Source: Beroe forskalii
Lineage: Eukaryota > Ctenophora > Nuda > Beroida > Beroidae
NCBI GenBank assembly: GCA_011033025.1
Contig: WFMF01000267.1
Location: forward strand, 62,001 to 126,000
Direction of reading: 5' to 3'
DNA length: 64,000 nt
The notes below the pieces were generated by a model. That model saw only the letters and a list, made by a program, of their open reading frames with translations, made no database searches and was not told where the DNA came from. Positions 16,985-48,083 of the stretch are shown piece by piece. The position numbers were made by a program, and so were the translations under genes. Numbering within the stretch: the first letter of the stretch is position 1; the number at the start of each line of letters is the position of its first letter.

Positions 16985-19900
16985 GACTGGCACAAACACG
17001 CAAAATAAGCATTGCGCACTGTTCTAAAGTTCTAAGATTATATTGTGCTTCTAAATCAACATTTATTGTTCTTCCCAACTTCATAACAAATTGAAGGGTG
17101 CATAACTACTAAATTGGGCTCTAAAATACACTGTCTAAACACGCTGGTTAGGTTAAAATACGCTGCATAAAGTCTAAACATGCCTTTTATGTACATAACA
17201 TAACAAGGGGTTTCTTTGTCAACTGTACCCCCTGAGCAAGGGATAACCCAGATCATCTGAATTTACCACACAACACGGGCTGATTGTTGCAATGGCAACA
17301 ATAAACTTTGTAGTTGAGCAATTGGTAAAGCTAATGACAATTTGACAACTTTTTACTTGTTTGCTATTGTCTGTGTTGAGTCGTTGCCTCCTAAAAGTGT
17401 TTACGATGCTGTTAAATCCACCTTTCTGAGAAACAGTCATGAACGTGGGAAATTTTATTTTAGATAAATCTCATGAAAAAGCACAGTGAAGTGACTGCTT
17501 CCGACATGTTCATGATTTTATTGATTTAAATGAAAACGATTAATAGTTATTATTATTTTATGATTTTATGTAGGGGTGTACCATGTTATTTCTTGTCTCC
17601 AAACTATGATGATAAACGTAACGTTATTGGTTAGTGGCAATGCTCTCCCAATTTCGGTGGCATTAGAAGCTTTCTATTTCTCTATTGGTCATCCCATTCT
17701 TTTGAGGGTTAATTGGATAACAAGCTAATATACCGAGTCACAAATTGAAAGGCATGGCGTTCCATTTAAAAACATTTCGATGACTCGTGTCACCTCGTCG
17801 TTGTGGGCATTTCCTTTGTATTTAGTTGGGTAACAGAGGCTGTGGAGAGGCTGCTGTAAACTTCTGAGAATTGAGATATGAGTGTGAGGCAATGGAGCTT
17901 GTCCACAGCAAGTCCCATAGCCTTTGTTTGGGTAACTGATGAGCTGATGTTTATTTTTCAATGATCAATGTTAGAAATTCCATACACCATAATCATCCCA
18001 ACACCATAATCCCAACACCATAATGAAAAAATGAAATTCTAAATATTATTTTATTCATTTTATTCCCAAAAGCAATGATTTAATACTTTTGTTGATTAGT
18101 TAAGTAACTTTATGCACGCTATATTATTACGCTCAGTTAGTTTTCCTGTCAACGAAGGCGCATAAATTGCGGAAACCTAAGCTTAGAACAAGTTTATAAC
18201 AAGCTTTTATGTCTCTGTCCAAACACCAGCTTCTACCGTTTTATTGCTAATTCTTGGTTCCAAGATAACAATTATCTATACACCTGCACAATGCCCTGAG
18301 ATATAACAATAAGCTCAACATAATATTATGCAGTATATATATCCGAGGGGCACAGAGTCCTCAGAATATTTCCCGAATCCCATCTTCCCATTGGTAGACG
18401 TTTTCGTGTTTTACATAAAATCAACTGTCTTTCAATTTTGCCTTCCCCAATTAATTTTACAACTTCACAAGGGGCAGTAATTATTCTTTGCTTTGATCCG
18501 GGTAATTTGTGTTGTTGAACTTGAAGAGTTGAAGCAATTAAGCATGACGTATAGATCGTAATATCGATTCCAGTAAGTTGTGAACCCAGTTTTTCAGATA
18601 AATGGCGATTGATTGAATGCACGTAACAGTTCGAAATGAGGAGAATTCGGCAGTTAGTTCTTCTGCTGGCTTACTTTGGGATGTACAGTTATGCAGGTAA
18701 TGAAGAATCAAGAGAACATGATAATCAATTAAAATTTTAAACTTTGTGTAATTTAATCTATCGTTCTATTGATTAAGTCATGAGAATAAAACACATTTCG
18801 TATAGAGGCATAGTTTTTAGCAGTTATTAATTTCAATTTCCAGCCCCCGCGTTTAACCTACGAATAACATGTGATGACAAGTTGGCACTTTACGTTGACG
18901 GAACCGATCAAGCTGCAAACCTAAACAATCCTAATACTTGGAATAAGGACGACGTAGTCAAGATAAGTTCGACATTCCAAGTGATTGCAGCGCAATGCGT
19001 CAATGCAAAGACGAGTAGCAAACTGGGACTCCTCGCCTCACTGGACGATGATAACGGTGACGTCCTCATGACGAGTGATACTGAGAACTGGCGATGCTTG
19101 GCAGGGAATCCCGAAGCTGATTGGACGAGAGTAGAGTTCGATGACAGTCAGTGGCAGAAAGCAATTCCGAACGGAGTGACAGGATCACAAGGAATGACGA
19201 TATCAACGGATGCGGTTTGGATCACTGCGGCAACATCACCAAAATCTAAAGTCTGTTGCAGATACACAAGGGCCTTTACCAGGCAACCAAAAGCACTGGG
19301 TTAGTCGTAGTTATCCAATGTCCCAATAAGTATATGAGCGTCAATACGGCAATGAGACCTTGAGAGGAAATATTGCGGATGATTTTAACGTCATAGAGTT
19401 AGTATAAGAAAGCAGCTGATACAGCTGAAAATTCCAGTGGTAGATATTATTAGGCAATTTAACATTCGCTACTCGACTCATCGACCGATAATCGATTGAT
19501 CTACGAATGGCTAATCTGATGAAACATAATATGATCTCGCAATTTCAAATTTCAGAGCCTTCTGTATGTTCAAAGTTAGCCGATGCGCTGATCATAATAA
19601 ATCAAAATGATACGATGGCGAAAATTTTCGTATCGACAAATTTTTCACTTATCCTCTTATCCTAACCTAGATATCAGCTACTTTTATCAGCAGAGTTTTA
19701 TAGGAGTACAGAATGCATCATCAGCAGAAAGTCTATGGAAGTGAGGATCCAGATAGCCAGTAAGATTCAGGTTGGTAATTCTACAACTATTATTCCATTT
19801 TTTTAACCTGTTCGTGTGACGTGTGCACCTTGCTTTATCTTACTTAATGAGTAAATTACATATTATTATTGTGACCAGCCCGAAATGTCATGAAACCAAT

Positions 19901-21105
19901 CATCATTAATGCTTCAATAGGGGGGCCATCAACTCATTAAGTTGTCAGTTTTCTCCCTTTACATTCTGTGATATCAAAATGGCCGCTTTCGTACATTTAG
20001 TTTTAGTCCGATGGTGGGGCAAAATGACCACTGTTTCCGACAGTTCATTTTCTATTAGTTTTTATTAATAAGAGATGGTATGAGTCATCGTTGACTCTTT
20101 GCACTGGATAGGGCTGTTAACGTAATATTGCCGCAAGATGACTATTGCCACTAATTGTTACCGTTATCTTGATCGAGAATTTGAACAACATTTATGATGT
20201 AGGATCTATTGTATCAAATTGTTTGATTTTGCCGAAGCATCTCACAATTAATTCTAACTTTCTATTGTAAATACAAATTTTGAGCCAAAAAAAGGTTTGC
20301 AAACCCCGTTGGACACCACTAAGGGCTTCAATATTCCAATAATACTCGTTACTTTCAGAGAAATGGCGATTGATTGAGTGTTCGTAACAGTTAAAATGGG
20401 GAGAAGACCTTTGCAGTTGATTCTTCTGCTGACGCACTTCGGCATGTTCTACTGCACAGGTATTCAAGAGAGCAAGATACCATGAACATGTTCCTTTATT
20501 AAACTTAGTGCGATTCGTATTAACATTAAATATATTGTGTTGATCGAAATTTGAGTACGTTTGTGTATTGGTGACTTGCTGAGGTATTAAACGGATTCCG
20601 TACAATCTAATAATAATCTATCTTGCAATTAATTTCAATTTCCAGCTCCCACGTTTAATTTATTACGGATAACATGCGATGACAAGTTGGCACTCTACGT
20701 AGACGGAACCGATCAAGCTGCGAACCTGATCAACCAGGACAACTGGAGTAAAGACGACGTTGTTAAGATAAGTTCGGCATTCCAAGTGATTGCAGCACAG
20801 TGTATTAATGGCAACAAAAGTAGCAAAATGGGACTCCTTGCCTCACTGGATGACAATAACGGTGATGTTCTCATGACGAGTGACTCTGAGAACTGGCGAT
20901 GCTTGGCAGGGGAGCCTGTAGCTGGTTGGACAACGGAAGAGTTCGATGACAGTCAGTGGCAGAAAGCAATTCCGAACGGTATGACGGGAACAAAACAAAC
21001 AACGATATCAACGGATGCGGTATGGATCACTGCGGCCACAGAACCAAAATCTAAATTCTGTTGCAGATATAAACGGGCCTTAACAAGGGAACCAGCACTG
21101 GGTTA
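16941..21105 (+). repeat. Segmental duplication, left copy (genes A, B)
   Basis: This block is collinear with 38088-48050. The 5' flank of gene A (16985-18635) matches 38145-39535 plus 41068-41305. Gene A with its downstream spacer matches gene C, and gene B with its upstream spacer matches genes D and E. It lacks the 1.5-kb TIR element, the ORF1-only LINE and one gene copy present in the right block. Confidence 0.9.
18636..19304 (+). CDS. Secreted galactose-binding-like domain protein A
   Basis: Two exons, 18636-18696 and 18844-19304 (phase 1, GCAG|GTAATG and TTCCAG|CC), encode 173 residues. Exon 1 is a 20-residue signal peptide (basic MRRIR then LVLLLAYFGMYSYA). Exon 2 encodes one domain: ITCDDKLALYVDGTDQA, then a W.KDDVVKI strand, FQVIAAQCVN, GLLASLDDDNGDVLMTSD, NWRCLAG, FDDSQWQKAIPNG, DAVWITA and a terminal VCCRYTR. 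The order DD..LYV(D/N)G, W, viAa..N, GLLAsL, TD..W+c, FDDS.W, W(I)W/T is that of the jelly-roll galactose-binding-like domain found at the N-terminus of bacterial-type alpha-rhamnosidases and relatives. Five cysteines suggest disulphides. An extracellular sugar-binding role is inferred. The closest relative is gene C. Confidence 0.82.
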
Positions 21106-21106
21106 G
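20396..21106 (+). CDS. Secreted galactose-binding-like domain protein B
   Basis: Two exons, 20396-20459 and 20646-21106, encode 174 residues. The signal peptide differs from A (MGRRPLQLILLLTHFGMFYCT). The mature domain has the same motifs but B-type residues: LINQDNWSKDD, GNKSSKMGLLAS, GEPVAGWTTEEFDDSQW, GMTGTKQTTIS and KSKFCCRYKR. It ends REPALG, two residues short of the A/C type. Tandem to A on the same strand with about 1.1 kb between them. The upstream spacer (19840-20390) is shared with genes D and E, so each copy carries its own proximal promoter region. The function is inferred as for A. Confidence 0.82.
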
Positions 21107-21164
21107 TCGTGGTTCGCAATGGAATCTAAACATCTATAATTAATATAAGGCCGGCCGGCAACTC

Positions 21165-21345
21165 GGTAATCTGCCGATGCACACCTGGGGCACATTTGGG
21201 GCACATTTCGGGCACACTTCGATCACAAGACACATCTGGGGCACACCTGGTGCACCCTGGGCACACTTGGGGCACATCTCGGACACAATTAATATTTAAT
21301 GTGCGAAACATATCTGGGGAACAACCACCTGAGGGCACATACTGA
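21165..21345. repeat. GGGCACA minisatellite
   Basis: About 12 degenerate copies of a 10-14 base unit (CTGGGGCACA, TCGGGCACACT) directly downstream of gene B. Confidence 0.75.
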
Positions 21346-21349
21346 TTTC

Positions 21350-22690
21350 ACAAAAAACCGTTTAGGCAAACGGTCAGTTTACCGAACCAAAACTGAGATA
21401 CTGGTAAACCGGCTGTTTTGCTGCCACTGATTATGAAAATCGAATAAAACGATGTCTAAAATCAAGATTATCATAACTTTTAACGTAGATATTAGCTAAC
21501 GTAGATATCAGCTAATTTCATCCATGACCCTAAGATTTTAATGCTCCAACAGCGTAATAGTAAAGATCTAGAAATTCTCAAGATCCAGGTTCGTAAATTC
21601 ACGATATTTCCATTTAATTTTAATGTATATGTTTATATGTTTAGGTGACGATATGGTGATTATGTAAGTTGCCCTACCTTTGTCCAGATTATTATGAAAG
21701 TATGAAGTATGTAAGTATGTTCAAACTTACGGCATTATATCAAAATTATCGGCTTTCGAGCATGTGACCGGAACTTAAGTAACGCTTCTTGAAATTTGTG
21801 AATGACACGGAAATCTAAATTCTTCTAAATTCATTATATCATTGAACCAATATTGTTATGTATCATGACTCATGAATTATCATGTTGATTCTAACACACA
21901 GATCTTATAACATAATTAATTTTAATTTATCAATTTGGTATGGCATAGAGGAATAAGACACAAAAAGGTCAGGTTCTAATTGCGTTACATGACCATCCCA
22001 CCCTTCCACAGATCTGTAGTCAGTGATTACTGGACAGTGGACGGTAGTGGAGTATTCAGTATTCAGTATTAAATCTGTGTGAATGGAGTGCATTGGCGTG
22101 ACCCTGTACTCTGCAGTCTGCAGGCTTCGGTTTTATTTCCTTTTCTATGCTCCTTCTCTCTTCTCTCCTTTGGTTAATTTAACAACTTGGATAGTTTTAT
22201 GAAATCAATTTATTACATTTAACCAGGATATTTCAATATTTCAAATCATTTAGCTTTGTTTTAGAATAGCCTCTGAATAAACTTTGGTCTCTGAATAAAC
22301 TTTGAGCCTTTGTCTTCTAAAGGTTTATTATGAAGCAGATGAAGTGATGAAGCATTTCATCCAAAATATTCAAAATATCCAAAAAATGTTCAACCAGTGT
22401 TGGACAGTATTGAAGATGAAGTGCTGATTAATAAGCCACGCCTTGTTCGCACGTTCCCCAACACTTATTAAACACTATTGCTCTTTTGCTGTGTATTCTG
22501 ACTTTTGATTCTTTTGTATTCACATTAGAATCATCAAAAAAACTCGCTGATTTCTAAGGAAACTACTTACTACTAAGACAAAGATTTCATTCAAAACCGT
22601 TCAGCATCATAGTACGTTACTTCGCTCTTTAGCTATAATCATGTTTATATGAGAAATCAAAGTCTGGAACCGTGTGAACAACGTCACCGC
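21350..22690. other. Intergenic, nothing recognised
   Basis: AT-rich. A few short local repeats are present, such as TAACGTAGATAT(C)AGCTAA near 21482 and 21498. No gene is supported. Confidence 0.35.
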
Positions 22691-22693
22691 TTC

Positions 22694-22723
22694 AGGCTTC
22701 AGCACAAATGTAATTATGACTAT
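22694..22723 (+). repeat. 30-bp direct repeat, left copy
   Basis: Begins AGGCTTCAGCACAAATG and ends TTATGACTAT. It is identical to 28786-28815 and brackets about 6.1 kb of repeat-dense DNA. Confidence 0.85.
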
Positions 22724-22789
22724 TATTACCCTGCAGTGTAATTACTTTTCGAATTTTTGAGCAATATTAATCATGTAATTCCACCGTAC

Positions 22790-22905
22790 CCAGCAGTTGA
22801 ATTACTGTCAAGTGTGTAATTACTATACCTCGACTGTTGAATTACTATTCAAGTGTTGAATTACTATTCCCAACTGTTGAATTACTACTGTTGAATTACT
22901 ACAAA
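22790..22905. repeat. GTTGAATTACTA minisatellite
   Basis: Six to seven copies of a TGTTGAATTACTATTC-type unit with length variation. Confidence 0.75.
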
Positions 22906-23756
22906 TTTTCTGAAACGGCCATTCGCACGATTCTAACCTATTTTCTATCTATGTGAGGATGTAAATAGGATAATAATAAGCTCCCATGATATCTGTTATC
23001 GCACTTTTCATATAAAAACGATTCGATGTAATTTATTCTTAACCGCATGTATACTGTGACACAAGATAAAATAGCGATAAGGAGCACAATATGTTCGGTA
23101 CGATATATGTTATATTCTTAATGGTACATTCGGTAGCACAAGATAAAGTAAATAAGGAGCACAATAGATAAAATACGATAATATATACGATATTATAGGG
23201 CAACACAAGATTAAAGATAAATTAGATAAATGGACTGCTATCGTATATACCTGAATGGCGCCACCTAGACGCGCTTGATAACTCCATCTGGGTTCCAATG
23301 TTTATTCAATATTTTATCTAGTGTTAGAGATGTAACGCAGACTTATGGCGCCATATATATATGGTGTATTGCTCCATTTTATCAATTTCATTTGCATTAT
23401 TACTGTGCGCCGTCATTTCTATCTGTCAGTTTTCGTTTCTTCTATGGTTGTGGAGTGAATTGTTTTGTTTTTGATTGAGTACCTACTCGCTTTCATGATT
23501 CATGTTTTTCATGGCGATGAAAGATCGCAACAAACTTTTTGTAAAGTACATACACTACGTCATACACTAACAGTATGCATCAATGCTGGGCGCTGGTTCT
23601 ATCATATTTTGGTCTTTTGAGAGTTTGAGTATTCGCTGAATTGACCCTGATGATGATGTGATGTTGACTTTTACATAAAACATTGGGTTCGAATACGTAA
23701 TACGTTCATCCGTATGTTTCTAAGTTTCAAACCGTCTCCTTTGATTGCTGCATACA

Positions 23757-23947
23757 TGGCAGGGTAATAATACAGTAAATACACACTTGGGTGTAAATTA
23801 CCATCGTAATTACTCGCAAGCTCGTGCAATTACTCAATAAACTCGCAAGCTCGTGCATTTATTGCATGAATTCCACTCGCAAGCTCGTGGAATTAATGTG
23901 GTAATTACACACCCAAGTGTGTATTTACCGTATTCCCGCCCTGGCCA
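23757..23947. repeat. Foldback with three hairpins sharing one loop
   Basis: Outer inverted arms of about 45 bases contain CAGTAAATACACACTTGGGTG on the left, with the complement on the right. Between them are three consecutive hairpins with the same CTCGCAAGCTCGTG core but unrelated stems: AATTAC-type, AATAAA/TTTATT and AATTCCA/TGGAATT. Confidence 0.8.
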
Positions 23948-24519
23948 GGGCGGTAACCCCCCGCGGTAAAAAGAAAACTGGCCAGGGGTATAGAAGTTAG
24001 AGGTTGAGGTCTGGGGTGATAGATATAATATATAATATATATATATCATGATAATTGGGAGCAAATTTAAAACGATGAGATGTCAAGAACGGGAAATGGT
24101 AGAGCCATTAAGCGATCGAGGTCAAGTTTTGTTGGTCTAAGATGGAAAAATGTTATAGGCTATGAGAAGTTCTGGTGACGTCATTATCACGTCACTATGA
24201 CGTCATCAACTTAGCGAAATTTTATTTCTTTTTAGGTCATCTTTGTGCGCATTTTTCACCAAGAAGGAATGGGAGATAGCTCAAAAATGTTGAAAAATCG
24301 TTAGTTGGAAATTTAAAGAGCTTTCAGAAAATCATACGGATCATCGGGCTATCTCGATTTTTCATCGAGATATACGCGATTTTCTAAGGTACGGTGAAAA
24401 ATCGATTTGCAAATTATAGGTCAAAACTGAAACGAGTGAGATGTACCAAGTATCTTGAGATGAGACCGGTCAAAGTATGTTCTACTAAGGCGGAATTGCT
24501 TAACCCATTATTGCCTAGT

Positions 24520-25025
24520 GGTTGCATATGCAACCACCAAGTTCAATCGCCCATAAAATTTGCAAATTTTGAGATAGGAAAATGGTTCATATTGTGTTTT
24601 GTAGGAAATTGTTTAAATTTTCATTTGAGATAGAAATTTCCAGGCTACAGTTTGATATGAAGCTGGTATAACCTGCCAAAGTTGGGTTAAAAATTTGAAA
24701 AATGACCAACTCTAGGGCTCTTCACCTCAAAACTTGAAATTTGCCCCAAATGATTTGAAAATTTTTGTTCCTGATTCAGAATTGGCAGCTCTACAGCATG
24801 AAAGTAATTTCAAGTTAAAATGGAGATTAATGTGAACATGAGAATGTTTGAAACTATGCTGGTTGCATATGCAACCGCTAGGTGGGGCCTAGTGGTTGCA
24901 TATGAAACCGGTTGCATATGCAACCACCAGGCTACAATATCTGGCCTAGTGGTTGCATATGCAACCACTGAATTGTGAAATTTTCATAAATGGTTGCATA
25001 TGAGCATATGCAACCACTAGGCCCA
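24520..25025. repeat. Cluster of GGTTGCATATGCAACC palindromes
   Basis: Six near-perfect or decayed copies at about 24523, 24861, 24894, 24910, 24950 and 24989. The full form is about 26 bases, CTAGTGGTTGCATATGCAACC + ACTAG. Two are imperfect: one has GAAACC, and one has an extra GAGCATAT. Confidence 0.85.
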
Positions 25026-26044
25026 CATTATTTGTTATTTAAGCTATGCAGTCACTATTTTGAAATCAACTCAAAATTTGAGTAGAGTTTTAGTGGTGCA
25101 TCAAGTTTAAAAACATTATTTTTGAGTAAAATGCCGCTAAATTTTGCACCTGGAACTTGTCATAATCAAATAATTTCATCTGATATAAGTCATTTCATTC
25201 TAATATACGTTGGCCATTGCTGCATGAAAACATCAATCTATTGGCCTAACGATTTTATAAGAATAAGCAATGATTTTTGTACCAGAAGCTTAGATTATAT
25301 TTATAGTTTAGACTCAAGAAAAGATAACTTAACACAATTCCTCAAAATGAGCAATTGTAACCTTTGGTAATAATCAATATGATTTTGGATGAAATTGATG
25401 GTTCTCAATTCTTCATTTACAATCAGCAAAACAAAAATCCTTGCTGGCCAGTTTATCATTCCTTTGACTATGCAATATTCATTCAAGGTTCTGTCCATAT
25501 ACCAAAATGATTAAGAATATTCAGAGCCATTTGAGGCCCAGTGTAGCTTGTCCAGAAACTGAACTATTATAATATCTTGCAGCCAACTGCCTTATTTGTC
25601 TCCAAAGATGCCAAAATTGTGTTACTAATAATAAATAATATTACTAACAATAATATCTATCCATCTAAGCATCAATCTCAGAATGCTCCAAGTAACTCCA
25701 AACATTGATTATATTTTGACTCGAATCATTGGTTTGTGGACTTCTTGAAAACCTACATTATGAAGATATAAGTAGGTATAATGATCAATGGGTGTAGTTG
25801 CGTTCCCTAAATCTTTGAAATTTTGAAACGATATTAGCCAGTACTATTTTTATAGTAGCTTGTGTCTTTCATTTCCTTATCCTAATTCATATTTTGAACT
25901 GCCTCAAGAGTCTAGAAACCCTCTAAGGAACGAATAAGTTTCTCTGGTTTGATAAGTTCAAGAATAGAAGAATTCCGTTGAGGGCAGCAATTTCACACAT
26001 CACGAACTAATTTTCCTAATTCATATTATAATGTTCAGTTATAC

Positions 26045-27135
26045 TAGTAAATTACTGCGGGAGATTGCCGGGAGTACTCCGAGAGTCCTCCGGGAGTATT
26101 ACGGGAGTCCTTTGGGAGTACTCCAGGAGTCCTACGGGATTCTCACGGGAGTCCCACGGTAGTCCTATGGGAGTCCCCTGGGATTCCTCTGGGAATTCCT
26201 AACTGAGTTCTACGGGAGTCCCCCGGGAGTCCTGCAAGAGTCCCTCGGGAGTATTCCAGGAGTCCCACAAGAGTCCTACGGGAGTCCTGTGAGAGTCCTA
26301 CGGGAGTCCTAAGTGAGAGTCCTACGGAGTTCCAAAAGAGTCCTATGAGAGCCCCACGGGAGTCCTGCCAGAGTCCCACGGGAGTCCAATGGGAGTCCTA
26401 AGGGAGTCCCACGGGAGTGCTCTGGGAGTCCTCCGGGAGTCCTACAGCAACAGGAGTCCTATAGGAGGCCCAAGGGAGTCCCCCGGGAGTCCTGCAAGAG
26501 TCCCACGGGAGTCTCGAGGGAGTGCCACGGGAGTCTCGAGGGAGTGCCAAGGGAGTCTCGAGGGTGTTCCACGGAGTCTCGAGGGAGTCCAACGGGAGGC
26601 TCGAGGGAGTCCAACGGGAGTCTCGAGGGAGTCCCACGGGAGTCTCGAGGGAGTCCCACGGGAGTCTCGAGGGAGTCCCACGGGAGTCTCGAGGGAGTCG
26701 AGAGAGAGAGTCCGACGGGAGTCTCGTGGGAGTCCCACAGGAGTCTCGAGGGAGTCCCACGGAGTCTCGAGGGAGTCCCATGGGAGTCGAGTCCCCTAGG
26801 AGTACTCCGGAGTCCGGGAGTCCCACAAGATTCCAACGGGAATCTTACGGGAGTCCTATGAGAGTCCCATGGGAGTCCTACAGCTATGGAAGTCTCCCAG
26901 AGTCCTCCGAGAGTCCCACGGGACTACGGGAGTCTCGAGGAGCCCACGGAGTCTGAGGGAGTCCTGAGGGAGTTCTACGGAGTCCCGAGTCTTACCAGTG
27001 GACTCCCCTGAAGGACTCCCTGTGGGACTCCCTAAAGACCTGTAGACCCTGGGGACTCCCGGAGGACTCAAGAGGACTCCCGGCAGCCCCCGTAACACTC
27101 CCTTGGGACTCTGGCAGGGCTCTCAGGGGAATCCC
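26045..27135. repeat. GGGAGTCC minisatellite with strand switch
   Basis: About 80 copies of a 12-15 base unit GGGAGTCC(T/C)(A/C)(C)G, with a more homogeneous 15-base GGGAGTCTCGAGGGAGTCC phase around 26500-26780. From about 27000 the motif appears as GGACTCCC, i.e. the array is inverted. Several apparently long open frames are by-products of the periodicity. Confidence 0.9.
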
Positions 27136-27430
27136 GCAGTAATTCTTTGAATAGTTGAATGACTGATATAAAATCTATGCAAGGTCTTTCAGAGTTATTG
27201 CAAATTCTACTTTCAATGCATGGAATTGAAGAGGTTGATATTAATACAATCATTGATTGCTGTTTCCAATTTCAAGTTTGTACACTGAACAGTTACCATT
27301 TGTTATAACTCAGTCTTCTATTGATAAGCTCATACTAAATTATGCAAATATTTATGTTCCACATTGATTGGTAAAAATAAGATAATATTGTCATGATATG
27401 AAATATGGATAATTTGCCTAAAGCTTCACT

Positions 27431-27565
27431 TGGTTGCATATGCAACCACCAGGCCACTGTACAAATACAGGCATAATATCCAGTTCAGCCTAGTGGTTGC
27501 ATATGCAACCATGCACCATTTGACTGGCAACGATTTCCCCCTAGTGGTTGCATATGCAACCAGAG
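27431..27565. repeat. Second cluster of GGTTGCATATGCAACC palindromes
   Basis: Three perfect 16-bp copies at 27431, 27495 and 27547, about 60 bases apart, on the far side of the GGGAGTCC array. Confidence 0.85.
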
Positions 27566-27739
27566 GATTTCGGCCCCATGGGGGTCCAAAACCTCAAATT
27601 TTGATAGTAGAAGTGCGACCATCTAGACACAAAATCCAAAATTTCATCAAAATCGGACCAGGTTCTGACCTACCGGGCATTAAGGGGTTAATAGGCTATA
27701 TGGGAAATTGGTTTGAGCCTATTTTGGTGCTGTGATGAC

Positions 27740-28130
27740 GTCATCAAAATCGCGTAAAACCACTAAAATAGCGTATTTTGCGATAAAATGCTATTTTGCA
27801 CTACTTTGAACATCTCTAACTCAGAGAGTTTTCATCGGATAATGTTTTAAGTCAACATTTTGCTTTTAGACCTCGAGATTTAGCTATAAAAATAGTTTCA
27901 AGGTGATCGGTCGAAAATGTCGTCATGTGAAGCCTCTAAAATTGAGATGCAAAATGGTTGAAATTGCGTTTATGACGAAAAATTTACTGTAGTCCTATTC
28001 TGTGATACGATAGTGAACTGATAATGGTTTCTCCATGTCTCGCAGTGACTAGGGATGGAAATATACGATGGAATAGTGAAGCACAATGTGAGTTCACGCG
28101 GACGTTTTGTAGAAATTAGGATTTTGAAGA
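27740..28130. repeat. Dispersed repeat also present in the right inverted arm
   Basis: The reverse complement of 27780-28130 resembles 49690-49970: CAGAATAGGACTACAGTA, then a GACCGATCA..TGAAAC box, then a TAAATCTCG box. The left arm keeps only the last part (34640-34690). Confidence 0.65.
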
Positions 28131-28565: not shown

Positions 28566-28607
28566 GTTCAAAAATATCATCTGTATCATCATTAAACAGT
28601 TGATTTG

Positions 28608-28707
28608 TTGGTCTAGTAACCCCCGCGGGTTTGGATGTGACAACGGAACCTGAAAAGAGACAAAATGGGCTGATCACATCCAAACCAGCGGGGGGTTACT
28701 AGACCAA
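28608..28707. repeat. 100-bp foldback (MITE-like)
   Basis: Inverted arms of about 32 bases: TTGGTCTAGTAACCCCCGC...GGATGTGA at the left and the complement at the right, with two mismatches and a spacer of about 35 bases. Confidence 0.8.
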
Positions 28708-28785
28708 CCGTCCAACGGTTTTGGTGGTTTAATATATAAGATTAATAATAATATATATCATGATAATTGGGAGCAAATAATTGGG

Positions 28786-28815: not shown

Positions 28816-28819
28816 AACA

Positions 28820-30185: not shown

Positions 30186-30188
30186 GCG

Positions 30189-30981
30189 ATGAATGCGACA
30201 TGGTATCTTCAAGCAGGAATCCTATCTGCTATCCTGGTCATCAGCATCACTACAGGTTTTTAGAACTCGAATCTCGACGATTAAATATTTCTAAGATTTT
30301 GATATATTGGAAACAAACATAAGTTACAGCCGTATGACTGGATTTTTCAACCACTCGAGCTCCAATAAAGCAATAACTTCTAGATAAAGCTGTGTTTTCT
30401 CCCTTTAAAAGCTGTGTTTTCTCCCTTTAAAAGCTGTGTTTTCTCACTTTAAAAGCTGTGTTTTCTCCCTTTAAAAGCTGTGTTTTCTCCCTTTAAAAGC
30501 TGTGTTTTTCTCACTTTAGAAGCACTAACTCCGCCACCCCCCAGACACACTGAAACTGATTATCACCTGCGACGATCACCTCACCCTATACGTTGACGGG
30601 GTACTGCAAGACAATCTACCGTACAAAAACAAGTGGAATAAAGCCGATACCATCGATATTCCCAGAACCTTCTCCTCGTTAGCAGCTAAGTGTGACAACG
30701 CAAACCTGGGTGAGAATGGTCTGCTGGGGTCTCTGGAGAACGCGGAGGGAGAAGTTGTGATGGTGACAGACGCTACTTGGAGGTGCACTTCCACCCTTAT
30801 TGAGGGGTGGCATGTAAAGGATTTTAATCGGTATCTCTCATGGGATGAGGCAACGATCAAAACTAGGAATATAAACAGGAATTATTTTGGAGAAATCGCA
30901 GATGGGGCGAAGTGGATTTGGACTGATAGGCTTTATGAAACAAACCCAATTTACTGCATCTATAAAAGTAAGTATTGGTAG
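30189..30981 (+). CDS. Secreted galactose-binding-like domain protein F (diverged)
   Basis: Two exons, 30189-30255 and 30545-30981 (phase 1, ACAG|GTTTTT and CCCCAG|AC), give 167 residues. The gene structure is the same as A-E. Exon 1 is a signal peptide (YLQAGILSAILVISITT). The domain keeps IITCDDHLTLYVDG, KWNKADTIDI, SLAAKCDNA, NGLLGSLENAEGEVVMVTDA, TWRC and AKWIWT, but sequence elsewhere is unlike A-E. It ends with a single YC rather than CC. WIW is even closer to the rhamnosidase-N/galactose-binding-like consensus than A-E. A strong donor (AAAA|GTAAGT at 30967/30968) lies just before the stop, so an alternative 3' exon is possible. It does not sit in the duplicated blocks, so it is an older paralogue. 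Confidence 0.78.
30388..30527 (+). repeat. 22-bp minisatellite in gene F intron
   Basis: Six copies of AAAGCTGTGTTTTCTCCCTTTA-type units. The array ends just before the acceptor and supplies much of the pyrimidine-rich tract. Confidence 0.9.
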
Positions 30982-32320: not shown

Positions 32321-32322
32321 AT

Positions 32323-33298
32323 GATACTGAAGACTACAGCAGTAGCTACTACTGTCTGATACTGAAGACTACAGCAGTAGCTACTACTGTCTGATACTGA
32401 AGACTACAGCAGTAGCTACTACTGTCTGATACTGAAGACTGCAGCAGTAGCTACTACTGTCTGATACTGAAGACTACAGCAGTAGCTACTACTGTCTGAT
32501 ACTGAAGACTACAGCAGTAGCTACTACTGTCTGATACTGAAGACTACAGCAGTAGCTATTACTGTCTGATACTGAAGACTACAGCAGTAGCTACTACCTA
32601 TACTACTACTGTCTGATACTGAAGACTACAGCAGTAGCTACTACTGTGTGATACTGAAGACTACAGCAGTAGCTACTACTGTCTGATACTGAAGACTACA
32701 GCAGTAGCTACTACCTATACTACTACTGTCTGATACTGAAGACTACAGCAGTAGCTACTACTGTCTGATACTGAAGACTACAGCAGTAGCTATTACTGTC
32801 TGATACTGAAGACTACAGCAGTAGCTTCTACTGTCTGATACTGAAGACTGCAGCAGTAGCTACTACTGTCTGATACTGAAGACTACAGCAGTAGCTATTA
32901 CTGTCTGATACTGAAGACTACAGCAGTAGCTACTACTGTCTGATACTGAAGACTACAGCAGTAGCTATTACTGTCTGATACTGAAGACTACAGCAGTAGC
33001 TACTACTGTCTGATACTGAAGACTACAGCAGTAGCTACTACTGTCTGATACTGAAGACTACAGCAGTAGCTACTACTGTCTGATACTGAAGACTACAGCA
33101 GTAGCTACCACAGGCAGGGCACTGATACTGAAGACTACAGCAGTAGCTACTACTGTCTGATACTGAAGACTACAGCAGTAGCTACTACTGTCTGATACTG
33201 AAGACTACAGCAGTAGCTACTACTGTCTGATACTGAAGACTACAGCAGTAGCTACTACTGTCTGATACTGAAGACTACAGCAGTAGCTACTACTGTCA
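32323..33298 (-). repeat. 35-bp satellite, left array (about 28 copies)
   Basis: The unit on this strand reads ACTGTCTGATACTGAAGACT + ACAGCAGTAGCTACT, 35 bases. A few units carry insertions (ACCTATACT) or single changes. It is the reverse complement of the 51331-57073 array. Confidence 0.97.
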
Positions 33299-35722: not shown

Positions 35723-35729
35723 AGTAATT

Positions 35730-36480: not shown

Positions 36481-36484
36481 GACA

Positions 36485-38040: not shown

Positions 38041-39535
38041 TTGAAGAGAAGTGCTTTAGGCAGACCAGATCAATATTTGGTAGGTTTCAATATAATCCCA
38101 GATATTTCCACAAGGAAATAATGAAATATCTTGGATTATATAACCGGCACGACCGCACAAAGTTCTAAAGTTCTAAGATTATATTATTGTGCTCCTAAAT
38201 CAATAATTTATTGTACTTCTCTACTTCATAACAAATTGAAGGGTGCATAACTACTAACTAGAATTTAAAATGGACTGCCTAAAAGCCTAAACACGCTGGT
38301 TAGGTTAAAATACGCTGCCTAAAGTCTAAAGATGCTGTTTAGGTACATAACATAACAAGGGGTTTCTTTGTCAACTGTTGCCCCCTGAGCAAGGGATAAC
38401 CCAGATCATCTGAATTTACCACACAACGGGCTGATTGTAGCAATGGCAACAATAAACTTAGTAGTTTAGCAATTGCTATAGCTAATGACAATTTGACAAC
38501 TGTTTACTTGTTTGCAATTGTCTGTGTTGAGTCGTTGCCTCCTAAAAGTGTTTACGATGCTGTTAAACCCACCTTTCTGAGAAACAGTCATGAACGTGGG
38601 AAATTTTATTTTAGGTAAATCTCATGAAATGGACCAGTGAAGTGACTGCTTTCGACATGTTTATGATTTTATTGCTTTGAATAAAAACGATTAATAGTTA
38701 TCATTATTTTATGATTTTATGTAGGGGTGTACCATTTTATTTCTTGTCTAAAACTATGATGATACAACGTGATTGGTGAGTGGCAATGCTCTCCCAATTT
38801 CGGAGGCATTAGAAGCTTTCTATTACTTTATTGGTCGTCACATTCTTTTGAGGGTTAATTGAATAACAAGCTAATATACCGAGTCACAAAATGAAAGATA
38901 CGGAGTTCCATTTAAAAACATTTCGACGACTCGCGTCACCTTGTCGTCGCTGTTGGCATTTATTTTTTATTTAGTTGGGAGAGGCTCCTGTCAACTTCTG
39001 AGAATTGAGATATACGAGTGTGAGGCTATGGAGCTTGTCCACAGCAAGTCCAATAGCCTTTTGTTGGGGTAACTGTTGAGCTGATGTTTGTATGTTTATT
39101 GTTCAATGATCAATGTTAGACTTTAGAGATTCCATACACCATAATGGAAAAATGAAAGTCTAAATATTATTTTATTTATTTTATTTCGAAAGGCAATGCT
39201 TTTATACGTTTGTTGATTAATTATTCAGTAACTTAATGCACTATATATTGCGCTCAGTATGTTTTCCTGTCAACGAAGGCGCATAAATAGCCGAAACCTA
39301 AGCTTTATCACAAGCTTTTATGTCTCTGTCTAAACACCAGCTTCTACCGTTTTATTGCTAATTCTTGGTTCCAAGATAACAATTATCTATACACCTGCAC
39401 AATGCCCTGAGATATAACAATAAGCTCAACATAATATTATGCAGTATATATCCGAGAGGCACAGAGTCCTCAGAATATTTCCCGAATCCCATCTTCCCAT
39501 TGTAGACGTTTTACATATTTTCGTGTTTTACATAA

Positions 39536-41067
39536 GGACGTGTTTCTTTAGTCACGACCTTTTCCCACTTTTTTGACATCATTCTTTAGATGGAAATTTT
39601 CGGACATTAGTTTACTCATCTGAGTATTTGTTCAGCTTTTATTTGGATGAGGAATGGCTGAAGTTTTCCTTTTTCCATTTTGTTCTAAGTGCATCACAGC
39701 TAAAGTTAGACCATGTTAAACATCGGTTTGTTAAATGTACTGGTTATGCTAAATAAAGGTCTTTTTGTTGCACACTTTTCATTCCTTGATTTTGACCTCT
39801 TGGAGTTTATCACTGACCCAAAACTTGTACTTGTTGAAAATATATCCTTTTCTGCTCACTATAAACCACATTTCAGGATAAAATGTACTCATCTTATGCT
39901 AATTTTGGACCATTAGAAAATCTTTATGTTTTTGAAAAAGTGTTCCTAGGATCCACAAAGGCCATTCTATGGGTTATATTAAAGTCTTCTTTCAAAGAGT
40001 CAGTCCTAAATGTGTATACTTCGGTCCAATTTTTCAAAAATGTTGAACCACATGCTAATTATGGACCATTGAATAATAGTATGAAAAATCTAATCTAGTG
40101 CTTAATTTAGGGTCAAATTATAGCAAAATGTGTGATTTCAAGATTAAATCGATCTCTCTTGGCCCCATGGGCAATAAAAGTTGATTTGCTTGATAAAATG
40201 TCACACCTAAATGCTAAAAAAGAGCCTCAAACAAATAAAGGTCCCATTTTAGCAAATTTAGAATTATTTTATTCATTTTCTTGATGATCTAAGGAAATCC
40301 CATGAAGCCTTGTAATGTCCCATTTCATTCTTTAAGAGAAGAAAATAACTTGATAAATGTAAAAAGCTAAAATGAACCATTTTCTCATTTAGATGAAAGC
40401 TCTTGGTCAATTTCTGGGCGAAATTTACCTCATTTTTGGTTCTTTTATAGCAATTTTTGAAAATTTAACAAAACAAAAATGTACTGATGTAAGAGTAGAT
40501 AAGATAAATGTCACCTTTATTGATGTTTCAATGCTAATAAACGACCATGTTCTTCAAAATTTGCTCTAAATGATGAAAAATGGTCCTTTTTAGCCGAATT
40601 TTACTTTCAAGAACTTGTCCATCATTCTTAGTGGATTGGCTAACTTGATTGGAGTAGATTCAGATTGAAAATGCTACAAAAAAGCCTCCTTACGAATCAA
40701 AAACACGACTTTCAAGGCTTATGGACAAGTATTAGCCAAGGTGTCACATTTAACGAAATACCTATGACATTTATCGCTTTTGGGCCTAGGAAAGGCAAAC
40801 AGTGACCATGAATACATCCAGATTCATAAAATCACAATCAGTTTCTTGTTAAATGTCACTAAAGCTAAAAAGGGGTTTTCTTAGCATAAAACTGTAACAA
40901 TTAACCCATGAATTATGATTCCTGGCTTATACTTAGCATGTCAACATTATACACTTAATCTCAAATTTCCAGATCAAAAGATGAAAAAATGGTCCTTTTA
41001 TAGCTATTTTTCTAAATTTGAGATTTCTTGAAGAGCTGAAAAAGGTCGTGACTAAAGAAACATGTCC
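39536..41067. mobile_element. 1532-bp non-autonomous TIR element
   Basis: 28-bp terminal inverted repeats (39536-39563 and 41040-41067) differ at one base; they begin GGAC and contain TTTCTTTAGTCACGACC. They are flanked by a 4-bp ATAA duplication (39532-39535, 41068-41071). The paralogous block has the empty site with a single ATAA at 18415-18418. The inside is AT-rich with short recurring phrases (TGGTCCTTTTATAGC) and no transposase, so it must be mobilised in trans. Confidence 0.93.
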
Positions 41068-41305
41068 ATAAAATCAACTGTCTTTCAATTTTTCCTTCCC
41101 CAATAACCGATACGATTTACAACTTCACAAGGGGCGGTAAAGCAGTAATTATTCTTCGCTTTGATCCGGCTAATTTGTGTTGTTGAACTTGACGCAATGA
41201 AGCATGACGTATAGACCGTAATTGCGCAATTTAAAGATTCCAGTAAGTTGTGAACCCAGTTTTTCAGATAAATGGCGATTGATTGAATGCACGTGACTGT
41301 TCGGA

Positions 41306-42027
41306 ATGAGGAGAATTCGGCTGGTAATTCTTCTGCTGGCTTACTTTGGGATGTACAGTTATGCAGGTAATCAAGAATCTAGAGACCATGATTATCAATT
41401 ACAATTTTAAACTACGTGCAATTTAATCTGTCGTTCTATTGATTAAGTCATGACAATAAAACACATTTCGTATAATGGCATAACTAATTGATTTAGATTG
41501 ATAATTTATCAATGCTAAAAATTATTAATGATAATTTTAGCAGTTATTAAAAATTTCAATTTCCAGCTCCCGCGTTTAATCTACGAATAACATGCGATGA
41601 CAAGTTGACACTGTACGTAGATGGGACCGATCAAGCTGCGAACCTGAACAATCCTAATACTTGGAATAAGGACGACGTAGTCAAGATAAGTACGACATTC
41701 CAAGTGATAGCAGCGCAATGCGTCAATGCAAAGACAAGCAGCAAATTGGGACTCCTTGCCTCACTGGACGATGATAACGGTGACGTCCTCATGACGAGTG
41801 ACACTGAGAACTGGCGGTGCTTGGCAGGGGATCCTGTAGCTGATTGGACGACAGTAGAGTTCGATGACAGTCAGTGGCAGAAAGCAATTCCGAACGGAGT
41901 GACGGGATCGCAAGATATGACGATATCAACGGATGCGGTATGGATCACTGCGTCCACAACACCAAAATCTAAAGTCTGTTGCAGATACACAAGAGCATTT
42001 ACCAGGCAACCAAAAGCACTGGGTTAG
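41306..42027 (+). CDS. Secreted galactose-binding-like domain protein C
   Basis: Two exons, 41306-41366 and 41567-42027 (phase 1), encode 173 residues. It is nearly identical to A: the same signal peptide type, NNPNTWNKDDVVKIS, NAKTSSKLGLLASLDDD and KVCCRYTRAFTRQPKALG. It differs at TL for AL in the TLYVDG strand, GDPVADWTT and ITASTTPKSK. The 5' flank matches A except for the TIR element about 240 bases upstream of the start, which may have displaced distal promoter elements. Its 3' half and downstream flank recur in gene D. Confidence 0.82.
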
Positions 42028-43678
42028 TCGTAGTTATATGGCTCATCCAATGTCTCCGTGTATGAGCGTCGATACGGCAATGAGAGCGTTAGAGGAAATA
42101 TTGCGGATGATTTTAACGCCCTAGAGTTAGTATAAGAAAGCAGCTGTTACAGCTGAAAATTCCAGTGGTAGGTATTTACTGTTAGGCAATTCAACATTCG
42201 CTACTCGACCCATCGACCGATAACCGATTGATCCACGAATGGCTAATCTGATGAAAAATAATATGATCTCGCAATTTCAAATTTGCAGAGCCTACTGCAT
42301 GTTCAAAGTTAGCCGATGCGCTGATCAAAAAAAATCAAAATAATACGATAGCGAAAATTTTCGTATCGTCAAATGTTTCACTTATCCTCTTATCCTAACT
42401 TAGATATCAGCTACTTTTATCAGCAGAGTTCTAAAGGAGTACAGTATGCATCATCAGCAGAAATTCTATTAAAGTGAAGATCCAGATAGCTAGTAAGATT
42501 CAGGTTGGTAATTCTACAACTATTATTCCATTTTTTAACATTCGACAATCAAAACTCAAAAAATTATGCCAATTTCTCAATTTAAGTTGTTACTTACCTA
42601 ATAAGTTAATAATACCTCCTAATAAGAACTTTTTTGGTCTACTGACAAACTATTTCATCAATTCATAAGCATCCAACAACTGTAATGACGAAGTATCTGG
42701 GTGTCCTAAATTGTCAAACACTTTAATAGCAATATACCTCCTGATTTTTAAACCAATTCCTCAATTATCATTTACAACCATCGTAAATAGCAAGGATAAT
42801 ACCCTGCTAACTGCTACTGTTTGCTGGTACCAGCATGACAATAACCTTGACAAAGCACCGTGACATAGCAAGATAACAACGGCTCATGACGTACCCACGT
42901 AGGCAGAATCATGACAGAGCTGACAACAGAAGTCATTACCTCGCCAGCCCTCACCTCGAGAGCACTATCAGATGTCTTGAGTTGTTTTTGGTTTCCAAGC
43001 TCTACTTAGTCAAAAAAACCCTCCCCCGAAGTCATTACTTCATTACCTTTTTTACTTGTGATAGGCCTGTTCGTGCGACGTGTGCACCTTGCAGCTTGCT
43101 TTATCTTACTTTCTTAATGAGTAAATTACATATTATTATTGTGACCAGCCCGAAATGTCATGAAACCCATCATCATTAATGCTTCAATAGGGGGCCGTTA
43201 ACCTCATTAAGTTGTCAGTTTTCTCCCTTTACATTCTGTGATATCAAAATGGCCACTTTCGTACATTTAGTTTTAGTCCGATGGCGGGGCAAAATGACCA
43301 CTGTTTCCGACATTTCATTTTCTATAAGTTTTATTAATAAGATATGGTATGAGTCATCGTTGACTCTTTGCACTGGATACGGCTGTTATCGTAATATTGC
43401 TGCAAGATGATTATTGCCACTAATTTTTACCGTAATCTTGATCGAGAATTTGAACAACATTGATGATGAAGGGTCTATAGTATCAAATTGTTCGATTTGC
43501 CGAAGCATCGCACAATTAATTCTAACTTTCTATTGTAAATTTAAATTTTGAAACGAAAAAAATAGATTGCAAACCGCGTTGGGCACCAATAAGGGCTTCA
43601 AAATGTAAAATAAATATTCCAATAGTTCTCGTTACTTTCAGAGAAATGGCGATTGATTGAATGTTCGTAACAGTTGGA

Positions 43679-44345
43679 ATGGAGAGAAGACCTTTGCAGT
43701 TGATTCTTCTGCTGACACATTTCGGCACGTTCTACTGCACAGGTATTCAAGAGGGCAAGATACCATGAAAATTAAACTTTACTAAACTTAATCGCTATTT
43801 GAGTATGTTTGTGTAGTACAGAGGAATAAAGCGGATTTGTACAATCTCATAATAATATATCTTGCAATTAATTTCAATTTCCAGCTCCCACGTTTAATTT
43901 ACGGATAACATGCGATAACAAGTTGGCACTATACGTAGACGGAAACGATCAAGCTGCGAACCTGATCAACCAGAACAGATGGAGTAAAGACGACGTTGTT
44001 AAGATAAGTTCGGCATTCCAAGTGATAGCAGCACAGTGCATGAATGGCAACAAAAGTAGTAAAATGGGACTCCTTGCCTCACTGGACGATGATAACGGTG
44101 ACGTCCTCATGACGAGTGACACTGAGAACTGGCGATGTTTGGCTGGGAATCCCGTAGCTGATTGGACAACAGTAGAGTTCGATGACAGTCAGTGGCAGAA
44201 AGCAATTCCGAACGGAGTGACGGGATCGCAAGATATGACGATATCAACGGATGCGGTATGGATCACTGCGTCCACAACACCAAAATCTAAAGTCTGTTGC
44301 AGATACACACGAGCATTTACCAGGCAACCAAAAGCACTGGGTTAG
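43679..44345 (+). CDS. Secreted galactose-binding-like domain protein D (recombinant)
   Basis: Two exons, 43679-43742 and 43885-44345, encode 174 residues. Upstream spacer, signal peptide (MERRPLQLILLLTH...) and first half (LINQNRWSKDD, MNGNKSSKMGLLAS) are B/E type. From about 44070-44115 onward the sequence is C type (TENWRCLAG, ADWTTVEFDDS, GSQDMTIS, ITASTTPKSKVCC, RAFTRQPKALG), including the C-only STT, and so is the downstream flank. It is therefore a crossover product that is intact and in frame. It has CDN for CDD at the first strand and GND for GTD. Confidence 0.82.
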
Positions 44346-45465
44346 TCGTAGTTATATGGCTCATCCAATGTCCCAATATATGAGCGTCAATACGGCAATG
44401 AGAACTTGAGAATTTGAGATTTTGAGAGGAAATATTGCGCATGATTTTAACGTCCTAGAGTTAGTATAAGAAAGCAGCTGATACAGCTGAAAATTCCAGT
44501 CGTAGGTATTATATTTACGGTTAGGCAATTCAACATTCGCTACTCGACCCATCGACCGATAACCGATTGATCTACGAATGGCTTATCTGATGAAACATAT
44601 GATCTCGCAATTTCAAATTTCAGAGCCTACTGCATGTTCAAAGTTAGCCGATGCGCTGATCATAAAACATCAAAATAATACGATGGCGAAAATTTTCGTA
44701 TCGACAAATTTTTCACTTATCCTCTTATCCTAACCTAGATATCAGCTACTTTTATCAGCAGAGTTTTATAGGAGAAGGAGTACAGTATGCATCATCAGCA
44801 GAAAGTCTCATTTAATTGAAGATTGAGGAAGTCAGAAAGATTCAGGTTGGTAATCCTACTATCCTACAACTATTATTCCATTTTTTTAACATTCGACAAA
44901 CAAAAACTCTAAAAAATAACGCCATTTTCTCGATTTATGTTGTTATTGACCTAATAATACCTCCTAATAAGAACTAGTTTTTTGGTCTACTGACAAACTA
45001 TTTCATAGATCCATACGCATTACTGTAATGACGAAGTATCTGGGTGTCCTGCATTGTCAAACACTTTAATTTCAATATACCTCCTGTTTTTTAATCATAT
45101 AAATTCCCTAATTATCAACAAATAGCAACTGTTTGCTGGTACTAGCAACTGTCTGCTGGCACCAGCATGGCAATAACCTTGACAAAGCACCGTGACACAA
45201 CAAGATAACAACAGCTCATGACATAGCCACGTAGCCAGAGTCATGACAGAGCTGACAACAAAAGTCATTAACTCGCCAGCCCTCACCTCGAGAGCACTAT
45301 CATGATAGTGTATCTCAGATGTCTTGAGTTGTTTTTGGTTTCCAAGCTCTACTTAACGACTCAGAATAGTCAAAAACCCTCCCCCAGAGTCATTACTTCA
45401 TTACCTTTTTTTACATTTTATAGGTCTGTTCGAAAGACGTGTGCACCTTGCTTTATCTTACTTAA

Positions 45466-46800
45466 TAATAATAATAATAATAAGATTTTGGCCCCGTGGC
45501 CAATTCAAATCAATCATTTATACCCTTCCTATCTCAACCCTATTCCATTTCACACAATAATCACTTTTGAAGTTATAGCATAAAGCACATTTAATGACTT
45601 CTCGAAAATTCTTTAAATTTTATTGATAAAAAGTTATCCGTCTTCCTCTTCACTACTGGAGAGGCGTTCTCGGGGCATGTTTCTCAATTGGTCAATTTCT
45701 GTGAGATTGCACTGGTTAACCTGTTGACTACTTCCTTGATTTCTTCAGGTTCATCTTCAAAGTTGTAACCAACCATGCTATCTTCTGAGCCAGCATCAGT
45801 GTCATTTTCCTCCTTGTTATCTTCTTCAATTACTCCAGTTTGGGATTTTTCATCCACAATCTCCTTTCTGGGACAGATGAAGGGCCCACCGTCAATCACT
45901 TTGTCCCCTCGAATCTTCCATCGGGTTTCTGGATGATTGCGTATTTGTTCCTTGAGAACAGCAACAACTGCCTTCCGTTTGTTCCTTTCATCAGCCGTCA
46001 GGTCAGCAGAGATGTAGATGCCCTTATAGCCAACATTTCCTCTAAGCCGAGGTGCTCTCTGTAAGACCGTAGTTGCGTCGTTAGAAGACTTGAGCCGTAG
46101 TCTCAATGGTCTGTTCGTCCCTGGCCTATCAATGCCAATATAATCCGTGGATAAGATGCCGGCACTGCTGCACTGCATACTTTCCAGCAATTCCGAACAC
46201 CAGTCACTTCGTGTCTGCACATCCAAAGGTCCAGGAGCCCCGTAGATTACCACATTGCTCTTCTTGTCACGTTTTGCCAGTGTTGTTTGTACTGCAGTCG
46301 CAACAACATCTGAACATCATTACCTTGAATCCCTGCCTCGTCAACTTCTGAGTAAGTCCGTACATTGCTGCTTTCGCTACACTGTTTTTCAAGATCTTCA
46401 TCGCGCATATTTCAGTCATAACTTTCTCTTCCCTTTTTTCTTGGGTTGCAATAAAATCCTCGAGCATGCGGGAATGAGCATCATGCAGTTTTTCACACCA
46501 TTTCCCGGCATCAAGCAGACAGTTCATAACATCCACGAGGTGTGTTGCGAGTTCCTGTCGTGTGTTCTTCTTGTGAGACAAAATACCTTCGACTGTTCCT
46601 TCCCCTCCACTAGTGATTTTCTCTAAGATTTTCGATCTGCGGGCTGTAGTTTTACTCAAGAATTTGAAGAAGTCGGAGTTCTTGTAATATTCATCCCTCG
46701 TGATTTGTGTTTGACGTTTTTGTAATATGATCGTAGGTACTTCAAGTTCTCAAGGTCAAGAACAGCTGACAGGTGCAACAAAAGATAAAGTGAAAAACGA
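45466..46800 (-). mobile_element. ORF1-only LINE derivative
   Basis: Inserted in the spacer between D and E; the A-B and C-D spacers read through this point. The minus strand carries an ORF1p-like protein in two frames: 46659-46267 (alpha-helical, coiled-coil-like) and 46253-45684 (KKSNVVIYGAPGPL, LRLRLKSSNDATTVLQRA, YKGIYISADLTADERNKRK, then an acidic tail), separated by a frameshift near 46310. The RNP/ISxDLTxxqR..rk pattern is that of RRM-bearing LINE ORF1 proteins. The 3' end on this strand is an (ATT)n microsatellite tail (45466-45482). No ORF2 is present, so this is a half-LINE, analogous in layout to mammalian HAL1. Confidence 0.72.
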
Positions 46801-47375
46801 GAAGTGAATTACATATTATTATTGTGACCAGCCCGAAATGTCATGAAAACAATCATCATTATTACTTCAATAGGGGGCCGTTAACTCATTAAGTTGTCAG
46901 TTTTCTCCCTTTACATTCTGTGATATCAGAATGGCCACTTTCGTATTTACTTTTAGTCCGATGGCAAAATGACCACTGTTTCCGACAGTTCGTTTTCTAT
47001 TAGTTTTTATTAATAAGAGATGGTATGAGTCATCGTTGACTCTTTGCACTGGATAGGGCTGTTATACCTATAACGTAATATTGCTGCAAGATGACTATTG
47101 CTACTTCCCACTAATTTTTGCCGTAATCTTTATCGAGAATTTGAACAACATTCATGATGTAGGATCTATATTATCAAATTGTTTGATTCGCAGAAACATT
47201 TCCCAATTGTAGAATTAATTCTTACTTTCTATTGTAAATACAACTTTTGGAACGAAAAAAGATTGCAAACCCCATAGGGCACCACTAAGGGCTTCAAAAT
47301 GTGAAATAAATATTCCAATAAATACTCTTTACTTTCAGAGAAATGGCGATTAATTGAGTGTTCGTAACAGTTGGA

Positions 47376-48083
47376 ATGGGGAGAAGACCTTTGCAGTTTT
47401 ATCTTCTGCTGACACATTTCGGCACGTTCTACTGCACAGGTATTCAAGAGGGCAAGATACCATGAACATGTTCCTTTATTAAACTTAGTGCGATTCGTAT
47501 TAACATTAAATATGACGTGTTGATCGAGTACGTTTGAGTACGTTTGTGTAGTGCTGACTTGCTGAGGCATTAAACGGATTCCGTACAATCTAATAATAAT
47601 CTATCTTGCAGTTAATTTCAATTTCCAGCTCCCACGTTTAATTTACGGATAACATGCGATGACAAGTTGGCATTGTACATAGACGGAACTGATCAAGCTG
47701 CGAACCTGATCAACCAGGACAAATGGAGTAAAGACGACGTTGTTAAGATAAGTTCGGCATTCCGAGTGATAGCAGCACAGTGCATGAATGGTAACAAAAG
47801 TAGTAAAATGGGACTCCTCGCCTCACTGGACGATGACAACGGAGACGTACTCATGACGAGCGACTCTGAGAACTGGCGGTGCTTGGCAGGGGAGCCTGTA
47901 GCTGGTTGGACAACGGAAGAGTTCGATGACAGTCAGTGGCAGAAAGCAATTCCAAATGGTATGACGGGAACAAAACAAACAACGATATCAACGGATGCTG
48001 TATGGATCACTGCGGCCACAGAACCAAAATCTAAATTCTGTTGCAGATATACGCGATACTGGCGCGATAGCGGCGTGAGGTAG
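47376..48083 (+). CDS. Secreted galactose-binding-like domain protein E (altered 3' end)
   Basis: Two exons, 47376-47439 and 47629-48083, encode 172 residues. It is B type throughout (LINQDKWSKDD, GNKSSKMGLLASLDDD, GEPVAGWTTEEF, GTKQTTIS, KSKFCCRYT). After CCRYTR the sequence leaves all other copies: the usual TRxPxALG end and 3' flank are replaced by YWRDSGVR and a stop at 48083. The new sequence is itself repetitive (GATACTGGCGCGATA, GATACTGGCGTGATACTGGC). This marks the end of the duplicated block. The core domain and all cysteines are kept, so it may still be functional. Confidence 0.78.

Follow-up and report, generated by a model that had tools for sequence, protein, structure and literature searches.

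Predicted secreted lectins related to CBM67 and POL, with an apparently permuted chain, are clustered in the genome of the ctenophore Beroe forskalii

We analysed a 64,000-nucleotide stretch of the Beroe forskalii genome (GenBank assembly GCA_011033025.1, contig WFMF01000267.1, positions 62,001 to 126,000 of the forward strand), referred to below as the window, with positions counted from its first base. Between 18636 and 48083 the window carries six small genes, A to F, all on the plus strand (Table 1). Each has a first exon of 61–67 bases encoding a hydrophobic leader (judged by eye), a GT-AG intron of 142–289 bases in phase 1, and a second exon encoding approximately 145–153 residues. All six are thus present in the two-exon form given by the original prediction, made from the DNA alone, and its description of the mature proteins as nothing but the domain with added cysteines holds for these genes as well. 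The leader suggests that the proteins are secreted, and the predicted mature chains reach the first core strand almost at their N-terminus. A GTAAGT close to the end of the gene C frame could be a candidate donor to an unseen third exon. We propose, with a probability of roughly 0.7, that A to F are secreted, single-domain, cysteine-bearing lectins of the superfamily that includes carbohydrate-binding module family 67 (CBM67) and the Pleurotus ostreatus lectin (POL), with a permuted chain and calcium-dependent sugar binding.

Table 1 Exons of the six predicted lectin genes in the window.
Feature	Position	Strand	Evidence
Gene A exon 1, predicted signal peptide	18636..18696	+	ATG, hydrophobic leader, phase-1 donor GTAATG
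Gene A exon 2, mature CBM67-like domain and stop	18844..19304	+	Open frame, acceptor TTCCAG, family profile match
Gene B exon 1, predicted signal peptide	20396..20459	+	Gene-structure analysis
Gene B exon 2, mature domain	20646..21106	+	Gene structure, family profile match
Gene C exon 1, predicted signal peptide, weak donor GTTTTT	30189..30255	+	
Gene C exon 2, mature domain, WIW motif near C-terminus, 3D-modelled member	30545..30981	+	phmmer match to POL, E 3e-5
Gene D exon 1, predicted signal peptide	41306..41366	+	
Gene D exon 2, mature domain	41567..42027	+	
Gene E exon 1, predicted signal peptide	43679..43742	+	
Gene E exon 2, mature domain, chimera (5′ part B/F-like, 3′ part D-like)	43885..44345	+	
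Gene F exon 1, predicted signal peptide	47376..47439	+	
Gene F exon 2, mature domain, C-terminal tail divergent	47629..48083	+	

Protein searches of the species' own genome (216,145,372 bases in 1134 contigs) with three queries, namely A, a copy from contig C714 and a copy from contig C244, placed the family at a minimum of 22 distinct places on 8 contigs: six on C322, four each on C714 and C244, two each on C703, C475 and C647, and one each on C370 and C607. At five of these places the copy appears broken or truncated; two of them are on C714 and one each on C244, C703 and C370. In the window and in ten fetched regions, every open frame held at most one copy of the domain. Of the 12 other loci scanned, 7 had a probable leader exon with a phase-1 donor upstream, as judged by a simple scan.

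A 16-row profile of the family, searched against the PDB, matched POL best (E 1.3e-8) and also SaRha78A of Streptomyces (E 1.4e-4), a significant sequence relationship that points to membership of the CBM67/POL-type lectin superfamily. The structure predicted for C (predicted local distance difference test score, pLDDT, 83.9; predicted template modelling score, pTM, 0.84) is a beta sandwich, and its best structural matches are the jelly rolls of POL and rhamnosidases. The original prediction had assigned a rhamnosidase-N/galactose-binding-like fold, to be abandoned if the structure were no jelly roll or the profiles led elsewhere; model and profiles agree with a jelly roll of the POL and rhamnosidase families, while the sequence relative is CBM67 rather than PF08531 (Bac_rhamnosid_N), a neighbouring domain of similar fold. 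None of 16 members matched PF08531 at E-values up to 10. In one homologue (L021), PF08531 covers residues 358–528 and the segment homologous to the family lies at 217–326; no Pfam model covers this CBM67 segment in L021, the one homologue scanned there. The idea that the fold occurs only as an accessory of glycosidases was wrong, because POL, Shictin and stand-alone Armillaria CBM67 modules are already known. Of the proposed expanded, free-standing family, the expansion and the single-domain frames were borne out, and the architecture itself is not new since free-standing CBM67-type proteins exist in fungi.

Several observations weigh against the fold and family assignment. Residues 101–145 of the C model are less confident (pLDDT 72–79), and because bacterial CBM67 rows formed part of its alignment, some of its likeness to CBM67 comes from the input. 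A first model, of A, was built from the six window rows only; with a pLDDT of 49.6 it was poor, and the Foldseek list obtained from it had no meaning. Neither model had a Foldseek match better than E 0.001. The VIA match of the C model to SaRha78A fell on residues 317–474, which form the neighbouring jelly roll and not the CBM67. The two relatives were also recovered unevenly: a window-only profile matched SaRha78A with POL unlisted up to E 10, and gene C alone matched POL (phmmer, E 3e-5) with SaRha78A unlisted.

Searches for other affinities gave little. Pfam scans of 16 members returned five weak families only, none of them a lectin model (SUEL-type rhamnose-binding, C-type or other animal lectins), and neither a SUEL nor a C-type lectin was named among the 50 VIA matches listed, which excludes nothing. 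No close relatives were found in prokaryote genomes with the window alignment, or in viral contigs (four queries), phage records and plasmid records; the plasmid match with the lowest E-value (0.4) fell under a GH78 gene.

The family departs from its relatives in the order of its strands. In nine Streptomyces CBM67s a WIW…WFR segment precedes the core, and POL has WIW ahead of each core, whereas the chains of the family begin at the core and close with WIW…YCR (WIT in five window copies). The first tryptophan of this C-terminal segment is present in all 16 members reaching it, and a strand is predicted at residues 136–141 of the C model. Two members on C475 (L054 and L055) end in WIW…YFR, with phenylalanine replacing the cysteine, and so resemble the bacterial WIW…WFR. 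Since the segment appears to come last instead of first, we file the family as a variant of the superfamily and not as plain CBM67.

The C-terminal segment is present in 13 of the 16 rows; placing it ahead of the core in these raised the profile–profile score against the bacterial set from 79.44 over 102 columns to 88.56 over 123 columns, a value matched by none of 300 column shuffles (maximum 85.8). The six window rows rose from 67.39 to 71.81 on permutation, with no shuffle control. VIA aligned POL to residues 1..117 of the 145-residue C model, which is what a permuted chain predicts. We therefore consider it likely, on the profile–profile comparison and not from anything seen in coordinates, that, compared with CBM67 and POL, the chain has undergone circular permutation. 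The WIW…FR strands that open CBM67 would then close the chain here, and the permutation may have arisen when a tandem two-domain ancestor of POL architecture was cut to one domain out of register.

Other results speak against permutation or weaken the case for it. When permuted, the seven non-window rows alone scored 72.17, a small margin above the highest of 200 shuffles (71.43). Comparison of hidden Markov models with the nine Streptomyces protein sequences gave 29.49 bits for the permuted and 28.31 for the native order, and shuffled controls averaged 29.59, with 28 of 60 equalling or exceeding the permuted score, so that permutation is unsupported by this test. In a permuted PDB search, with a different row set, POL fell from 38 to 33.3 bits and SaRha78A rose slightly from 25.0 to 26.2. 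Foldseek aligned four POL entries over 132–133 columns (root mean square deviation 5.3–5.5), and the stop at residue 117 is thus VIA's own. These results could be read to mean that the domain is a CBM67 core minus its first strands, to which WIW…YCR was added independently; the lack of advantage over shuffles in the model-to-sequence test, the lower POL score and the possibility of chance likeness between aromatic-rich strands agree with this. We nevertheless hold it to be rather improbable, given a profile–profile score above every shuffle of the same columns, the invariant first tryptophan and the strand predicted for the segment.

Residues of the presumed binding site were counted in an alignment of 17 members, out of the 22 places. 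D11 is present in all 17, aspartate or asparagine at position 12 in 13, and N54 in 11; the six window copies have all three, that is, an Asp-Asp/Asn motif of the putative calcium-binding type together with the Asn of the second loop. These residues lie in a C-D-[DN] loop and a C-x-N loop and align with D179, N180 and N228 of SaRha78A, which we take to bind calcium and rhamnose. Two aspartates bind calcium in the CBM67-type fold according to PMC11512411. Four members, C607, C647a, C647b and C714a, have neither the second site residue nor the Asn; in the tree they group (100/98) with C714c, which keeps both, at a point where long branches meet. Cysteines C10, C52 and C85 are present in 17 of 17 members; of the 16 members long enough to include position 139, 14 have C139. 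A C10–C52 disulfide is plausible because both cysteines adjoin site residues in the sequence; a C85–C139 pair would not be universal, since two members without C139 keep C85.

The copies in the window are block duplications: A and D, and likewise B and E, share 86% DNA identity over 1.3–1.5 kb, F is a further copy of B (90% identity), and the larger matching blocks overall are 83–90% identical. Gene E is chimeric, resembling B and F in its 5′ part and D in its 3′ part: aligned codons 1–75 are 92–96% identical in DNA to B and F and 68–87.5% to A and D, and from codon 126 to the end the identity to D is 98.8–100%. The ratio of nonsynonymous to synonymous substitution rates (dN/dS) was 0.13–0.35 in the 10 pairwise comparisons of A, B, D, E and F, showing that purifying selection acts on these five of the six genes; dS was saturated in the 5 pairs involving C. 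Duplication and conversion would multiply and mix the genes of the family. The copies may therefore be mostly recent, partly conversion-driven duplicates without separate roles, making the cluster one of ordinary gene turnover. The close pairs A/D and B/F, the chimeric E, the identity of the larger blocks and the broken copies elsewhere in the genome are in keeping with this. Against it stand the strong divergence of C, whose frame is nevertheless fully open, and the differences in site residues between subfamilies on other contigs. We give this account not quite an even chance; it is compatible with the genes encoding lectins.

After removal of the leader each protein would consist of one jelly-roll domain, which may bind a terminal rhamnose- or galactose-like sugar through calcium held in the two loops described above. 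In their most likely role the soluble proteins would recognise or trap such sugars on glycans of microbes, algae or mucus. We infer calcium, sugar, disulfide pairing and role, the functional steps by analogy with relatives, and regard soluble glycan binding as the best reading of the family. A structural part in extracellular matrix, mucus or an adhesive secretion, with the lectin fold kept, sugar binding lost and the conserved residues holding calcium or the fold only, is unlikely. It would account for the four members that lack the second residue and the Asn and keep the fold residues, and a single domain means a single site, when agglutination needs an oligomer and none is in evidence; set against it are the retention of D, D/N and N in all six window copies and the purifying selection on five of them. 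More tentatively, and short of being probable, the soluble lectins proposed here may form a large secreted family of the ctenophore lineage that arose from a tandem POL-like ancestor, trimmed out of register to a circularly permuted CBM67. Such a family, for which there is no Pfam model, would keep or lose its calcium/sugar site from member to member and recognise rhamnose-bearing non-self glycans.

Elsewhere in the window, a WSC-domain exon at 13259–13567 (Pfam E 1.3e-6) may represent a further carbohydrate-binding domain close to the lectin cluster; about 500 bases past it, at 14055–14713, a 60-base unit is repeated in tandem 11 times with 96% matches. Other exons belong to ATG7 (1601–1993, minus strand; PF16420, E 4.2e-21) and, with a GPS motif (63712–63984, E 5.6e-12), probably to an adhesion G-protein-coupled receptor-type gene. 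The palindrome GTTGCATATGCAAC occurs in seven exact copies in two clusters at 24521–27560 (in none of 100 shuffles), flanking a G-rich tandem array at ~26083–26788 on both sides. A 35-base tandem repeat has ~161 copies at 51331–57026, and its reverse complement ~27 copies 18 kb away at 32322–33297. An 11-base tandem repeat (49 copies, 60108–60643), open in all three forward frames, directly follows an open frame ending at 60108.

The mitochondrial contig of the same genome (L090, 13,339 bp) has seven Pfam-recognised genes, all on one strand. TGA encodes tryptophan, and AGR, read from conserved context, stands at arginine sites. ATP6 had no match among the 13 of 19 long frames scanned, and ARAGORN in bacterial mode, a weak test for mitochondria, found no tRNA. 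The long frames at 7546–8649 and 8929–9867 had no Pfam match at E 1; the beginning of the former looks, by eye, like a copy of the beginning of the frame at 4311. These features fit the traits of ctenophore mitochondria given in PMC6991124: missing tRNAs, missing ATP6 and ATP8, unidentified frames and apparently unidirectional transcription.

The original prediction included neither the apparent circular permutation nor the conservation of the calcium-site residues, and did not recognise gene E as a chimera. No title on an animal's own protein was among the matches listed for open-access literature mentioning CBM67, and no title on such a family among those of other open-access listings. Similar WIW…YCR proteins may occur in other invertebrate genomes, and this, if true, would lower the novelty. 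If our interpretation is right, the family adds an animal lectin class outside those described by Pfam. One recent genome paper (PMC11797021) treats ctenophores as sister to all other animals and surveys their immune receptors through known Pfam domains; such a survey would miss this family. A circularly permuted CBM67 would be a natural test of how carbohydrate-binding modules turn into stand-alone lectins. The calcium–sugar hypothesis can be tested directly, because some members have the site residues and others lack them.

Among known systems, the sea anemone lectin AJLec also comes from a non-bilaterian animal and is likewise small, calcium-dependent and of jelly-roll fold; sea anemone and coral have predicted homologues of it. 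It differs in being a disulfide-bonded dimer with a site described as unlike other lectins (PMC6070535). As a relative it was dropped, being absent from the family's sequence matches and having a different site. For calcium-dependent carbohydrate-binding modules a permuted pair is already on record, going by the title of entry 2xhh (CBM60; entries 2xhh and 2xfd). The shiitake lectin Shictin shares a signal peptide, one CBM67-type domain and two Asp for calcium with our family, and differs in being fungal and 289 residues long with an extra C-terminal domain (PMC11512411). Armillaria has CBM67 modules 'on their own', again fungal and tied by the authors to pectin breakdown (PMC7827401). The CBM67 of SaRha78A has a homologous core with aligned D/N and Asn residues, but is a module of a six-domain enzyme, in contrast to the free-standing family, and in nine Streptomyces homologues WIW…FR stands ahead of the core. 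POL (PDB 6t0q, 6t1d, 6kbj, 6kbq, 6kc2, 6li7), the top match whether the query was the 16-row profile, C by itself or the C model, is also a free-standing jelly-roll lectin of CBM67-like domains and shares the D-D motif after the first core strand. It has two tandem domains with WIW before each, where our family has one with WIW last, and in the aligned stretches it lacks C10, C52 and C85, where the family has four cysteines. The animal host, the four cysteines and the apparently permuted order differ from what is known.
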